From an uncultured Alphaproteobacteria bacterium (GTDB lineage: Bacteria > Pseudomonadota > Alphaproteobacteria > MPNO01 > UBA2964): a stretch of DNA of 64,000 nucleotides. The DNA is taken from contig OX638326.1 of assembly GCA_951812775.1 (NCBI GenBank), forward strand, positions 1,562,335 through 1,626,334, read 5' to 3'. Shown here piece after piece: positions 5,903-56,559 of this stretch (position 1 is the stretch's first letter; every line of letters begins with the position of its first letter). Made by a program: the position numbers and the translations under genes. The notes beneath the pieces are model-generated. The model ran no database searches. It had not been told where the DNA came from and saw nothing but the letters and a program-made list of their open reading frames with translations.

Positions 5903-6507
5903 TCAACCATCTCCCGAGGCTTTGACGTTTCTTGCAAAGGCAATGACCTCATCGAGCGGCAGATCACCCGTCTTCTGAACAATTTGTTTCATTATGGAGA
6001 GCGCATCTGCAGAGTACCCGGCCAGTGTTTCAGCAACTCGTTCCGCCTCGAGCATCAGATCTTCAGAATCGACAACATAACTCACTAAGCCCATCTGGCG
6101 GGCCTCATCAACATCTATGCTACGCCCGGTCGAATACAGGTCGAATACAGGTCGAATACAGCTTTTTCCCCGATATGTTTCACGAGTAACGGCAAAACGC
6201 CTGCAACAGTGAAACCCCTTTTAATTTCCGGATAGCCAAACTTCGCCTCATGGCTGGCGATTACCATGTCGCATGCAATAGCAAGCGCAGCCCCGCCGCC
6301 CAAAGCCGGGCCGTCCACAACCGCAATAACAGGTTTGGTCTTTGCCGCCAACAGAACTACCCGGACATCCTTATCTGCCTCGGCATTCTCAAGCGTCTCG
6401 ATCAACGCCTCGACCAGTTCAGAATTAAGCGCGTTCCGCTTTTCCGGGCGTTGCATGGTTAATCGCAAGAGCGATCCGTTTCGGTCTATTCTCAGGACAT
6501 CACTCAT
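5903..6507 (-). pseudogene. Enoyl-CoA hydratase/isomerase family gene, internally deleted and frameshifted
   Basis: The reading starts like a crotonase (MSDVLRIDRNGSLLRLTMQR, EKRNALN) and continues through VDGPALGGGAALAIACDMVIAS. Between VRVVLLAA and KTKPVIAVVDG about 60 residues are missing without a frame change. That segment normally holds the first oxyanion-hole peptide, so the product would be inactive. A second lesion follows: three copies of an 11-bp unit at 6129-6161 shift the frame to an early stop. With two copies the frame reads AVFDLYSTGRSIDVDEARQM and continues into GLVSYVVDSED, a normal crotonase C-terminus. Corrected length is only about 197 residues against the usual 255-265. 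It lies between a broken oxidoreductase and a broken regulator. Confidence 0.9.
6129..6161. repeat. 11-bp unit in three exact tandem copies
   Basis: The unit GTCGAATACAG occurs three times head to tail. Two copies keep the enoyl-CoA hydratase frame open, so the third is the likely recent addition, by replication slippage. Confidence 0.95.
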
Positions 6508-36051: not shown

Positions 36052-37306
36052 ATGACTAACCCTCAATCCACACCTGAAACCTACTCCTGGCGGCTGCAAC
36101 TACCGATTTATGCGAGTGGTTTCTTTAACGGCAATATTTATTTCCTGACCGGTATTTTGATGCCGCTCTGGGGAGCGATTGTCGTTAAGGAACCTTTCCT
36201 CATCGGGTTGATCGTCGCATCGCGCCAGATCTTGCCGGTTTTGCTCACCATCCATGGTGGGGCGCTGATGGACCGGTTCGGCGCGCGGCGGATCATGCTG
36301 GTATTTGGTGCGATCGGTGTGGCCACGATGGCCGCTTTCCCGTTCTTTCCGTTTCTCGCAATGATTATTGCGCTGCAGATGCTCAACGGACTTGCGGAAT
36401 CACCTGGCTGGGTCGGTAGTCAGGCACTTGTTGGGCAACTAATGAAGGGTCACGCAACCTATGCCGGCCATTTAAGTTTCGCATTACGGCTCGGCGGGTT
36501 TCTCGGCCCCTGGCTGGCGGGCATCGCTTGGCATCAATATAGCCCCACGACAGGGTTTTATTTCATGGCGTTATGGATTGCCGGCGGCTGGGTCGCAGGC
36601 TGGCTGGTCCCGGCTGCCGAAGTTGCCAAGCATGACAGCCCGAAGAAAAAGGGTAGCGTCTGGGCGGTGTTGCCAAGCTGGTCAGATTACGTCGCGACCT
36701 TCCGGATGCTCGGCATTGCCTCCGTATTGCTGGTCACAGTGGTTACGTTGGTACGGCAGACCGGCTCGGGCATTCAGCTATCCTTCTTATCCGGTTTGGT
36801 TAAATCAGCTCGGCATTACCGCCGCCGATATCGGCTTTATGGTCGGGTGCAGCCATATCGTCTCCGCCTCATCCTCCCTTTCGGTGGGGTGGGTAACCCG
36901 CTGGGTACGGCCGCAATGGTTGTTGATCTTCACCATTGGGCTCTCCGTGGCCGTGATGGCCAGTACGCCCTTGTTTGGAAATGACTACATCACCCTGCCC
37001 TACGTCGGCAAGGTCTATTTCATTCTGTTTGGTGTGATCTGTCTGCGCGGTCTGACACAGGGTTGGAACATGCCGCTAATGATGTCGATTGGCATGCAGG
37101 CGGTTTCGGCCAGCGAACAGGGCAAGGTCGTCGCGCTCCGCATCACAACCAACCGGCTTGCCTCTGCGGTCATTCCGTTGCTGATGGGCAGCATTGCCCA
37201 ATGGGTAGGGCTTGAAGAAAGTTTTTATGTCATTGGTGGCATCGGATTGACCGGGTTGGCGCTGACCGTGGTCTGGATGGTACGATCACCTGCCTTCAAA
37301 AAATAA
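36052..37306 (+). pseudogene. MFS transporter with a +1 frameshift
   Basis: Two frames join into one 417-residue MFS protein. The first reads from the ATG at 36052 (TYSWRLQLPIYASGFFNGN) to RQTGSGIQLSF; the second continues YPVWLNQLGITAADIGFMVG to VVWMVRSPAFKK. The break is at about 36783-36792, where one extra T in TTCTTATCC shifts the frame; the neighbouring paralogue reads GSGVQSSFYVVWL across the same point. As it stands the protein loses about its last five helices. A single-base difference could be a sequencing error. The intact paralogue follows after 22 bases. Confidence 0.85.
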
Positions 37307-52072: not shown

Positions 52073-52717
52073 GTGATCGACCCGATAAGCTGGGCACATT
52101 CCTGGCCTTATATTCTTACCGCTTTTATCGGAGGGTATTCGATTGGCTCAGTACCGTTTGGCTTGCTCTTTACCAAGATGTCTGGCCTCGGTGATATCCG
52201 TGACATTGGTTCAGGAAATATCGGGGCAACGAACGTACTACGAACCGGGAAAAAGGGTATCGCAGCAGCGACGTTGTCGGCTGACATAATCAAAGGCGTA
52301 TTCGCTGCTCTTATCGGCGCACAGTTTGGACCAGATATCGCTGTTGTCGCTGCGCTCGGTGCCTTTCTGGGCCACTTGTTTCCTGTCTGGCTAAAATTTC
52401 AGGGCGGAAAAGGTGTAGCAACTACCCTCGGCATTATATTGGCCTTGTCCTGGCAAACAGGGCTCGTCGCGGTCGGCATTTGGTTACTCACCGCGTTGGT
52501 GTTTCGCTATTCTTCTCTTGCAGCACTACTTGGAGCAATTGCCGCACCTATTTCTGCTTGGTGGTTAGCAACGCCACAGCTCGTCGAGCTCTTTGCCGTT
52601 TTCACTGTTCTTATCTGGATTCGACATCATGCGAACATAAGGCGTTTGCTCAAAGGCGAAGAAACCAAAATTGGTGCGAAAAGCCAGGAGACCGTACCGG
52701 ACGAAAGTACGTCCTGA
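52073..52717 (+). CDS. plsY: Acyl-phosphate:glycerol-3-phosphate acyltransferase
   Basis: A 214-residue integral membrane enzyme of about five helices. The conserved loops are YSIGSVPFGLLFTKMSG, GSGNIGATNVLRTGKKG, FPVWLKFQGGKGVATTLG and IWIRHHANIRRLLKGEE. It transfers an acyl group from acyl-phosphate to glycerol-3-phosphate, the first step of phospholipid synthesis. Start GTG with AAAGGA upstream. A dprA gene follows after 28 bases, the usual alphaproteobacterial order. Confidence 0.95.
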   Translation: MIDPISWAHSWPYILTAFIGGYSIGSVPFGLLFTKMSGLGDIRDIGSGNIGATNVLRTGKKGIAAATLSADIIKGVFAALIGAQFGPDIAVVAALGAFLGHLFPVWLKFQGGKGVATTLGIILALSWQTGLVAVGIWLLTALVFRYSSLAALLGAIAAPISAWWLATPQLVELFAVFTVLIWIRHHANIRRLLKGEETKIGAKSQETVPDESTS

Positions 52718-52745: not shown

Positions 52746-53875
52746 ATGGATACTGAACGACGTTCTCTTTCCCGCACTGAACATCGCGATTGGCTTAGAC
52801 TGATACGCAGCGAAAACGTCGGACCTACAACTTTTCGAAGTTTGATTCAGCGTTACGGATCAGCCGCCAGCGCCCTCGAAGCCGCGCCCGAGCTTTCGCG
52901 CCGTGGCGGTAGGAAACGCGCTATTAAAATTATTCCGGAATTCGAGGCTGACGACGAACTCGCTGTTCTTGAAGAACGGGGCGGTACTCTTATCGGCTTA
53001 TGTGAACCGGCGTACCCCGAAGCCCTCTCTACAATTCACGACCCTCCTCCTCTTCTGCAGCTGTTTGGCGATGCCAGTCTGCTCAATAAACCCTCAATCG
53101 GTGTTGTGGGTGCCCGGAACGCTTCTGCTGCCGGCCGGGTCTTCGCGCGTGATATCGCCGCCGCTGTAGGAAAGAAAGGGCTTATCGTCTCATCGGGATT
53201 AGCCCGCGGGATTGATACTGCCGCACATGAAGGGGCACTCGAAACTGGCACCGTCGCTGTCGTCGCGGGGGGGGGGGGGTCGACATTGTTTATCCCCGCG
53301 AAAACGAGGCACTTTACGAAAAAATTGTCCAAACTGGTGCGGTAATAAGCGAACAACCTTTGGGGACGTCACCCACAGCCAGGCATTTCCCACCGAGAAA
53401 CAGGCTGATTTCGGGTTTGTCGTTCGGCGTCCTCGTCGTCGAAGCCGCGCTGCGGTCAGGGTCGCTCATCACGGCGCGCATGGCGTTGGAACAGGGACGA
53501 GAAGTTTTTTCCGTCCCCGGATCACCGCGCGATCCGCGACACAAGGGTACAAATGGCCTGCTACGCGATGGGGCGACACTCACTGAAGGGGCAGACGATA
53601 TTATTTCGCAGATTTCTCCGATGTTGGAGACCGTTAAAGCGTCTCAGGAATTCGTCAAACTTCTGCCGGACGCTACCGAAACCATCCCCGAAAATGAAAC
53701 ATCGGAGGCCAGGGATCGCGTCTGCGAATTATTGGGCCCGGTTGCAGTAAGTATTGACGAACTGCTTCGCGAGTGCCAATTGTCACCCGCCGTTGTACTA
53801 ACGGTACTCCTCGAGTTGGAACTCGCGGGGCGATTGGAACGCCATCCGGGAAATCTGGTTTCGTTGATTTCGTAA
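52746..53875 (+). pseudogene. dprA: DNA-processing protein DprA, frameshifted at a 13-G tract
   Basis: Two frames make one normal-length DprA (about 374 residues). The N-terminal frame has a helical domain, then VGARNASAAGRVFARDI and [19 protein letters not shown] of the Rossmann-like domain, and ends at [12 protein letters not shown]. The second frame continues [40 protein letters not shown], and a C-terminal winged helix. The join is a run of 13 G at 53267-53279; run lengths of 8, 11 or 14 would restore the frame, and 8 gives the usual AGGVD. DprA loads RecA on incoming single-stranded DNA in transformation. As read, the protein lacks half its core. Slippage (phase variation) or a homopolymer sequencing error are both possible. 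Confidence 0.88.
53267..53279. repeat. 13-G homopolymer within dprA
   Basis: An uninterrupted run of 13 G, the longest single-base run I saw in the window. The codons here are glycine (GGG), so the frame depends directly on run length. Confidence 0.95.
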
Positions 53876-53958: not shown

Positions 53959-56559
53959 ATGGACGTTGTCGTAGTAGAGTCGCCAGCCAAAGCCAAGACG
54001 ATCAATAAGTATCTTGGCAGCGGGTTTACCGTGTTGGCAAGTTATGGACATGTGCGCGATCTGCCACCCAAGAATGGCTCCGTCGATCCTGAGCAGGACT
54101 TCAATATGCTCTGGCAAGTTGGAGACGACTCAGAAAAACATCTAAAAGCAATAATTGATGCCACGCGTGGCGCGGATCATTTGTATCTCGCGACGGACCC
54201 GGATCGCGAAGGGGAAGCGATTTCCTGGCATGTCCAGGAGGTTCTTGAAAACCGGAAAGTCCTCGACGGCGTTAACGTCCAGCGTATTGTATTCCATGAG
54301 ATCACCAAAGACGCTGTTCTGCAGGCCATCCAGGAACCACGCGATCTCGATCACGGATTGATCGAAGCCTATCTCGCCCGTCGGGCGTTGGACTATTTGG
54401 TGGGCTTCACGCTTTCTCCTGTTCTCTGGCGCAAATTGCCCGGTAGCCGCTCCGCTGGACGGGTTCAATCAGTTGCCTTGCGATTGATAAGCGAGCGCGA
54501 GAGCGAAATTGAAAAATTTGTCCCGCAGGAATATTGGTCTTTAGAGGCAGACTTCACGACCCGTCAGGGTGGTGTGATGACCTCGCGCATGACTCATTTC
54601 GAAGGTGAGAAATTCACCCGTTTTTCGCTGGCTAATGCTGAAACCGCGAACCGGGCGGCGGACACGGTTAAGACAGGTGACTTCAGAGTTACCTCAATTG
54701 AACGCAAATCGGTTTTCCGCAACCCGCAACCGCCCTTCACAACGTCCACACTGCAACAAGAAGCTTCTCGAAAGCTGGGCTTTGGTACCGCCCGAACGAT
54801 GCGTATTGCACAACGTCTTTACGAGGGTGTTGATATTGGCGGTGAAACCGTTGGTCTCATCACGTACATGCGGACGGACAGTATTTCGATGGCGCAGGAA
54901 GCCATCACTGCCAGCCGGAACCTGATTAGGGATCAATTTGGCGCTGAGTATGTTCCAGATACGCCAAATGTATTTCGCAATCGCTCAAAGAATGCTCAGG
55001 AAGCACATGAGGCTGTTCGGCCAACTGATTTCTCACGACAGCCAAAGGACATGGCGTCCTATCTGGATGATGACGGTCGTCGTCTCTATGAGCTGATCTG
55101 GAAGCGCGCGATGGCGAGTTCGATGCAGAAAGCGGCACTGGAACAGGTTGCTATCGATTCCGCCACTGTTGATCGCAAAACGGTGATGCGCGCCACAGGC
55201 TCTGTGATCGTATTCGACGGATTCCTCATGCTTTATCAGGAAGACAGAGACGACCCGACTGACGATGATGACGGTTCCTCAAAAATTCTACCGCGTGTCG
55301 CTGAAGGCGAGTCTCTGACAACTGGCGAAGTCAGGCCAGAACAGCACTTCACGAAACCACCACCCCGCTTTACTGAAGCGAGCCTGGTTCGCAAGATGGA
55401 AGAACTCGGCATTGGACGGCCTTCCACCTACGCCTCCATTATTTCAGTATTACAAGACAGAAATTACGTCCGGCTCGAGAATAAACGTTTCGAACCTGAG
55501 AATCGCGGGCGCGTCGTCACGGCGTTCCTGTCGGGCTATTTCGAACGTTATGTTGAATATAACTTTACTGCCGACCTGGAAGATCGCCTTGACCTTATTG
55601 CCAGTGGTGACACCAACTGGAAGCAAGTTCTCCGAGACTTCTGGGATGCTTTCCATGAAGCTGTGAAGGGAACCGAAAGCCTCAAAATTTCAGATGTCAT
55701 AGATACGCTTGATGCTGATCTCGGGCCGCATTTCTTCCCACCCCGTGAAGATGGCTCGGATACTAGGGTGTGCCCTTCCTGCAAAGACGGTCGTCTGGGT
55801 CTCAAGCTCGGAAAAGGCGGCCCGTTTATTGGCTGCAGCAATTACCCGGACTGCAACTACACGCGCCCCCTCTCTGTCGCCAGCGCCGAAGATGATGAAA
55901 TCGCAGGCATGTCTTTGCCAAAAGTCTTAGGTATTGATCCTGAAACAGAGAAAGACGTCACACTGCGCAAGGGCCCCTTCGGTTTTTATATCCAGCTTGG
56001 AGAACCAGAAGGAAAGCAGAAACCCAAACGCGCAACGCTTCTTAAAAATTTCTCTCCGATGGACGTAACACTGGAGATAGCGCTTGCCCTACTCTCTCTC
56101 CCCCGTGATATCGGCCCGCACCCTGAAAGCGGTGAGATGATCCAGGCAGGTATCGGCCGCTACGGCCCCTATCTTAAGATTGGCCCCGCCTATACCTCAC
56201 TCGGTCCAGAGGAAGACGTCCTTTCAATCGGACTGAACCGTGCGATAACAGTTATTAAAGAAAAACCGCCCAAAAGCCGGGGTGCTGCAACCGCTCTACG
56301 AGACCTTGGAACGCACCCATCAGACGGCAAACCAGTGGGCGTCTTCAAGGGGCGCTACGGACCATATGTCAAACACTGCCGTGTAAACGCCTCTATTCCG
56401 AAATCGGAGACAGAAGAGTCGATCACGCTGGATATGGCAGTTGAATTACTGGCTGCCCGAGCCGCCAAAGGGAAAAAAGGGAAGAAGAAAGCTGCTAAGA
56501 AAAAGGCTGCAAAAAAGAAAGCCGCAAAAAAGGCCGCAAAGGCCAAATCTAGCAGCTGA
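53959..56559 (+). CDS. topA: DNA topoisomerase I
   Basis: An 866-residue type IA topoisomerase. The Toprim domain starts VVVESPAKAKTINKYLG and holds DPDREGEAISW; the catalytic Tyr303 lies in GLITYMRTDS. A C-terminal zinc module (CPSCKDGRLG and GCSNYPDCNY) is followed by several TopoI C-terminal repeats (KGPFGFYIQLG, IGRYGPYLKIG, KGRYGPYVKHC) and a Lys/Ala-rich tail, common in alphaproteobacteria. It relaxes negative supercoils. It sits between dprA and rnr, all on the plus strand. Confidence 0.97.
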   Translation: MDVVVVESPAKAKTINKYLGSGFTVLASYGHVRDLPPKNGSVDPEQDFNMLWQVGDDSEKHLKAIIDATRGADHLYLATDPDREGEAISWHVQEVLENRKVLDGVNVQRIVFHEITKDAVLQAIQEPRDLDHGLIEAYLARRALDYLVGFTLSPVLWRKLPGSRSAGRVQSVALRLISERESEIEKFVPQEYWSLEADFTTRQGGVMTSRMTHFEGEKFTRFSLANAETANRAADTVKTGDFRVTSIERKSVFRNPQPPFTTSTLQQEASRKLGFGTARTMRIAQRLYEGVDIGGETVGLITYMRTDSISMAQEAITASRNLIRDQFGAEYVPDTPNVFRNRSKNAQEAHEAVRPTDFSRQPKDMASYLDDDGRRLYELIWKRAMASSMQKAALEQVAIDSATVDRKTVMRATGSVIVFDGFLMLYQEDRDDPTDDDDGSSKILPRVAEGESLTTGEVRPEQHFTKPPPRFTEASLVRKMEELGIGRPSTYASIISVLQDRNYVRLENKRFEPENRGRVVTAFLSGYFERYVEYNFTADLEDRLDLIASGDTNWKQVLRDFWDAFHEAVKGTESLKISDVIDTLDADLGPHFFPPREDGSDTRVCPSCKDGRLGLKLGKGGPFIGCSNYPDCNYTRPLSVASAEDDEIAGMSLPKVLGIDPETEKDVTLRKGPFGFYIQLGEPEGKQKPKRATLLKNFSPMDVTLEIALALLSLPRDIGPHPESGEMIQAGIGRYGPYLKIGPAYTSLGPEEDVLSIGLNRAITVIKEKPPKSRGAATALRDLGTHPSDGKPVGVFKGRYGPYVKHCRVNASIPKSETEESITLDMAVELLAARAAKGKKGKKKAAKKKAAKKKAAKKAAKAKSSS

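Follow-up and report, generated by a model that had tools for sequence, protein, structure and literature searches.

The window, i.e. the whole stretch of 64,000 nucleotides analysed here, belongs to an alphaproteobacterial genome (G000; the labels G001-G023 denote its relatives, among which G007 is a near one) and contains the gene dprA between plsY and topA, interrupted by a run of guanines. The features of the locus are the following:

52073..52717, plus strand: plsY, the upstream neighbour of dprA, which adjoins topA in dprA-deleted relatives.
52746..53875, plus strand: dprA, 374 codons with an 8-G tract, here frame-broken with its end as read at 53345 (Pfam/NCBIfam matches of both halves, stop positions).
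52746..53345, plus strand: upstream open reading frame as read, 199 amino acids, comprising the N-terminal HHH domain and about half of the Rossmann domain.
53267..53279, plus strand: 13-G tract at native codons 174-177, in the AGG[VI]D loop at the end of a Rossmann strand, five bases more than in every genus relative.
53279..53875, plus strand: downstream half of dprA in its native frame, with the remaining Rossmann domain and the winged helix.
53754..53782, plus strand: element TTGACGAA-N12-TGCCAATTG, embedded in the 3' end of dprA, a probable promoter or control element of topA.
53959..56559, plus strand: topA, intact, the downstream neighbour of dprA.

The tract at 53267-53279 consists of exactly 13 consecutive G and is the only G run longer than 8 in the window; under a Markov model fitted to the runs of the window itself, 0.002 G or C runs of at least 13 would be expected per window, by which a chance origin is ruled out. 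In a profile search, the upstream frame (52746-53266) matched DprA_N and DNA_processg_A and the downstream frame (53279-53875) matched DNA_processg_A and DprA_WH, so that the two halves carry DprA domains in two different frames. Together they contain all of the domains by which we recognise DprA (PF21102, PF02481 and PF17782) above cut-off, while the frame itself is interrupted, 13 G leading to a first stop at codon 199. The run count, the stop positions and the domain matches bear out the sequence-only reading, which had described a dprA put out of frame by 13 G, and we agree with it on the identity of the gene and on how unusual such a tract is in an alphaproteobacterial dprA. Its statement that 8, 11 or 14 G keep the frame is correct. 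Tract lengths of 8, 11, 14 and 17 all open the frame, giving 374-377 amino acids, but the native length of 374 amino acids, which is that of the G007 protein, is obtained with 8 G only.

In the genus relatives, the codons at the place of the tract are GC(T/C)-GGx-GGx-AT(C/T), with no tract, which leaves the window with five additional bases. The length of the surrounding stretch AV-x-(A/G)GG-x-D-xx-(Y/F)P is identical in 80 of 80 DprA loci, the longest G run in it being 5. In a structural model of the intact G007 DprA (mean pLDDT 75), it forms the end of the Rossmann strand 170-174 and the following turn, the residues 177-180 of which are modelled with low confidence. With 11 or 14 G the frame is open and 1 or 2 extra glycines are placed in this invariant loop. 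Because the loop length is invariant in all 80 loci and the tract is five bases too long, only 8 G would, judged from the sequences, restore a native DprA, and the products of 11 or 14 G are predicted to have an altered loop.

The comparison with related strains, which the sequence-only reading had proposed as a check, yielded no conserved tract: the G tract is absent from dprA in every genus member that has the gene and from the 80 wider loci. An intact dprA was found in G002, G007, G009 and G010. The gene is broken by a 2-bp deletion in G004 and by several stops and deletions in G001, and it shows a +1 shift in G003, a draft genome in which topA is frameshifted too, so that this may be an error. 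In G005, G008, G011, G012, G021 and G023 (the last two from another family of the same order), plsY adjoins topA with no full dprA in between. dprA has been broken or deleted independently in several members of the genus and family and appears to be a dispensable gene. With regard to comEC, which is intact in G000 (802-amino-acid frame), the genomes of the order other than G000 that have comEC contain 10 intact and 1 broken dprA, as opposed to 2 intact and 8 broken in those without it (Fisher p=0.002, a value which is only indicative, as the genomes are all related and include several incomplete drafts). Since comEC is intact in G000 and its presence tracks an intact dprA, a working dprA would be expected there, which speaks against an inactivation. 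The two halves of dprA differ from G007 with a dN of 0.069 and 0.072, the value for plsY being 0.096; any loss of dprA should therefore be recent, although dS is saturated and the dating is accordingly weak. An old pseudogene is ruled out by the low dN of both halves, within the same limits of dating, and comEC is also intact.

Both halves are indeed well conserved, as had been remarked from the sequence, but for the last 48 codons or so the DNA is conserved for another reason. Within the genus, the synonymous difference of these 48 codons is 0.18-0.30 vs 0.66-0.82 in the preceding 150 codons, and this conservation at the DNA level persists in the pseudogene of G001. Outside the genus, the retention of the codons ATT GAC GAA and TGC CAA TTG in 76 loci greatly exceeds what codon bias would give, with CAA in 57 of 58 cases (20 expected) and TTG in 44 of 46 (6 expected), and the synonymous sites of the element are conserved across the Alphaproteobacteria. 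Of 80 loci, 38 have the element TTGACGAA-N12-TGCCAATTG without any mismatch and 65 have it with at most 3; six dprA-less genomes retain it at 147-193 nt upstream of topA, with 0-2 mismatches. A TTGACG box is a feature of alphaproteobacterial sigma-70 promoters, which the element resembles. It is therefore probably a promoter or control element of topA that is independent of DprA. As this probable topA element is kept without dprA, the conservation of the 3' end by itself is no proof of a working DprA.

A pattern search of the complete G000 sequence (4.149 Mb, one contig) revealed 18 G or C runs of at least 9. Runs of at least 11 number 12 vs 1.9 expected, or 10 if transposon copies are counted once. 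A general expansion of homopolymers is ruled out, as there are only 4 A/T runs of 9 and none longer. Besides the 13 G of dprA, the runs of at least 11 comprise one in the RNase P RNA (11), one in a Tn3 transposase (11), some in intergenic stretches, and runs of 17 and 11 in each of two copies of an IS1595-type transposon that carries a DNA methylase. An inverse-autotransporter adhesin has a run of 12, out of frame, in its signal peptide, and a flippase-like gene has one of 16, in frame, at its start. In rnpB (L057:4001-4011, tract 2028533-2028543), 11 G stand in place of the GGAGGG of G007, which is a gain of five bases as in dprA; since this essential gene is unsuited to an on/off switch, the growth of G-runs reflects, at least in part, a general mutational tendency of the genome. 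The two transposon copies (L056:3788-5961 and L058:4465-6638), in which the DNA methylase lies in two frames, differ by 1 mismatch in 2174 bp and have identical tract lengths of 17 and 11. This fits poorly with slippage at a very high rate, unless the assembly made the copies alike. A loss of mismatch repair is ruled out as the cause of the expansion, mutS and mutL being intact, a point that we count against an inactivation by run growth. Of the seven tracts in coding frames, the assembly shows five in frame (p=0.045 with a chance of 1/3 per tract, from a small sample), which hints that the assembled lengths are mostly right. Among the tract loci of the relatives compared, a counterpart exists for a single G000 tract (9 long, near 3683958), namely in G002.

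Some further runs may be described here in their own right. The adhesin gene (L055:3920-4881, tract 1440556-1440567) has 12 G in the signal peptide, its frame is off by one, and a 40-bp direct repeat follows. The other gene (L060:2881-4032, tract 2918611-2918626), which we take to encode a flippase-like protein and for which a Pfam search gave no match, has an in-frame tract of 16 bases directly after the start and overlaps a glycosyltransferase gene. These two tracts are in classic contingency positions and are better candidates for phase variation than dprA. A palindrome of C10-G11 (L061:4001-4021) has an S49 peptidase gene on one side and an ihfB-like gene on the other. Many G/C runs of at least 10 also occur in the Defluviicoccus-type genomes G013 and G016 of the same order; among the matches listed, most are densely clustered and close to contig ends, and being a different picture they were rejected as a parallel.

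We consider the best explanation to be a recent and real inactivation of dprA in a genome with several expanded G-runs, and not a selected switch of DprA, and would give this about an even chance of being correct. The precursor would have had about 8 G (GCG GGG GGG GTC, corresponding to the conserved AGGV loop codons), which polymerase slippage may have extended to 13 in the G000 lineage, knocking dprA out of frame. The 13-G tract would in principle still be unstable, with no selected on/off switch for DprA. This reading builds on what was observed, namely the tract, the broken frame, the five bases gained relative to the relatives, the invariant loop, the other expanded runs and the recurrent dprA losses among family members.

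Apart from dprA, the window contains further frame breaks with respect to G007, from which we infer that gene loss is ongoing in G000. A presumed enoyl-CoA-hydratase-like pseudogene (5918-6507) carries an 11-bp tandem duplication and has lost about 120 bp. A gene presumably encoding an MFS-like transporter (36052-37303) has one extra T near 36787, which is either a frameshift or an error.

The sequence-only reading had seen in dprA a possible phase-variable competence gene. Accordingly, slippage would be reversible, and cells with 11, 14 or 8 G would make DprA, resulting in a mixture of transformable and non-transformable cells, which we regard as possible but unlikely. The frame logic and the identity of the gene agree with this proposal, as do the long tract with 14 G one slip away, the conservation of the rest of dprA, the retained comEC and the presence in G000 of the adhesin (off) and the flippase-like gene (on), which are typical contingency genes with tracts at the start. 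G tracts of 7-8 or more have lengths prone to slip (PMC6321876), and the 13 G in the coding frame of dprA are within this range. However, 11 or 14 G would burden the invariant loop with glycines, and the native protein requires 8 G, five slips away from 13. Contingency tracts are found preferentially within the first fifth of genes (PMC2823697), whereas the dprA tract lies mid-gene, at codon 174 of 374, and not at the 5' end. Moreover, no relative has the tract, so that no kept tract of varying length is seen; dprA has been lost repeatedly in the family; the run in rnpB gained the same five bases where a switch makes no sense; and the tract lengths of the near-identical transposon copies are the same. 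The literature searched contains no report of dprA phase variation, two apparent matches being a letter string in a reference list and the title of a reference. That this alphaproteobacterium has a poly-G phase-variation repertoire comprising the surface adhesin, the flippase-like gene and dprA, with random switching from cell to cell of the capacity to integrate DNA after uptake, appears quite doubtful.

An error in the assembled homopolymer length, which the sequence-only reading had named as the alternative, with a true length of 11 or 14 and dprA open, is likewise unlikely. Homopolymers of more than 10 are difficult for most sequencing platforms, and the intact comEC, the conserved dprA and the second single-base frameshift in the window, that of the MFS gene, fit such an error. 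The in-frame excess among the coding tracts speaks against it, as do the assembled runs of 16-17 G, according to which long runs were not simply collapsed, and a true length of 11 or 14 would still leave an abnormal loop. A repair of the frame during expression, in which slippage of the RNA polymerase or a -1 ribosomal shift, both of which slippery homopolymers allow, would yield some full-length protein, is highly improbable. The native frame would be reached from 13 G by a -1 shift, but the product would have 2 extra glycines in the invariant loop.

Should the G tract nevertheless switch dprA, the population would be hedging its bets on transformability, a situation undescribed for dprA in the literature searched. 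Under the inactivation that we favour, without any switching, the growth of a G-run would be able to inactivate a core gene despite intact mismatch-repair genes. In either case, the probable topA control element accounts for part of the conservation at the 3' end of dprA, and this conservation provides no evidence for a working DprA.

In comparison with known systems, dprA of G000 resembles the poly-G contingency loci of Campylobacter, Helicobacter and Neisseria (PMC6321876, PMC2823697, PMC5084427) in having a slip-prone coding tract that is off as sequenced, and in the about a dozen such runs present in the genome. Unlike those loci, the tract lies mid-gene in a core recombination gene, is absent in all relatives, gives a native protein at only one length and was seen at a single length. 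The loss of dprA together with competence genes is another parallel, as several family members have it broken or deleted and also lack a comEC match, from which G000 differs by its intact comEC. The gene itself corresponds to DprA/Smf, the DNA recombination-mediator protein A (PF02481, PF21102, PF17782; PDB 3MAJ), in its three domains and in the order plsY-dprA-topA, and differs from it by the frame that is broken at the AGG loop.
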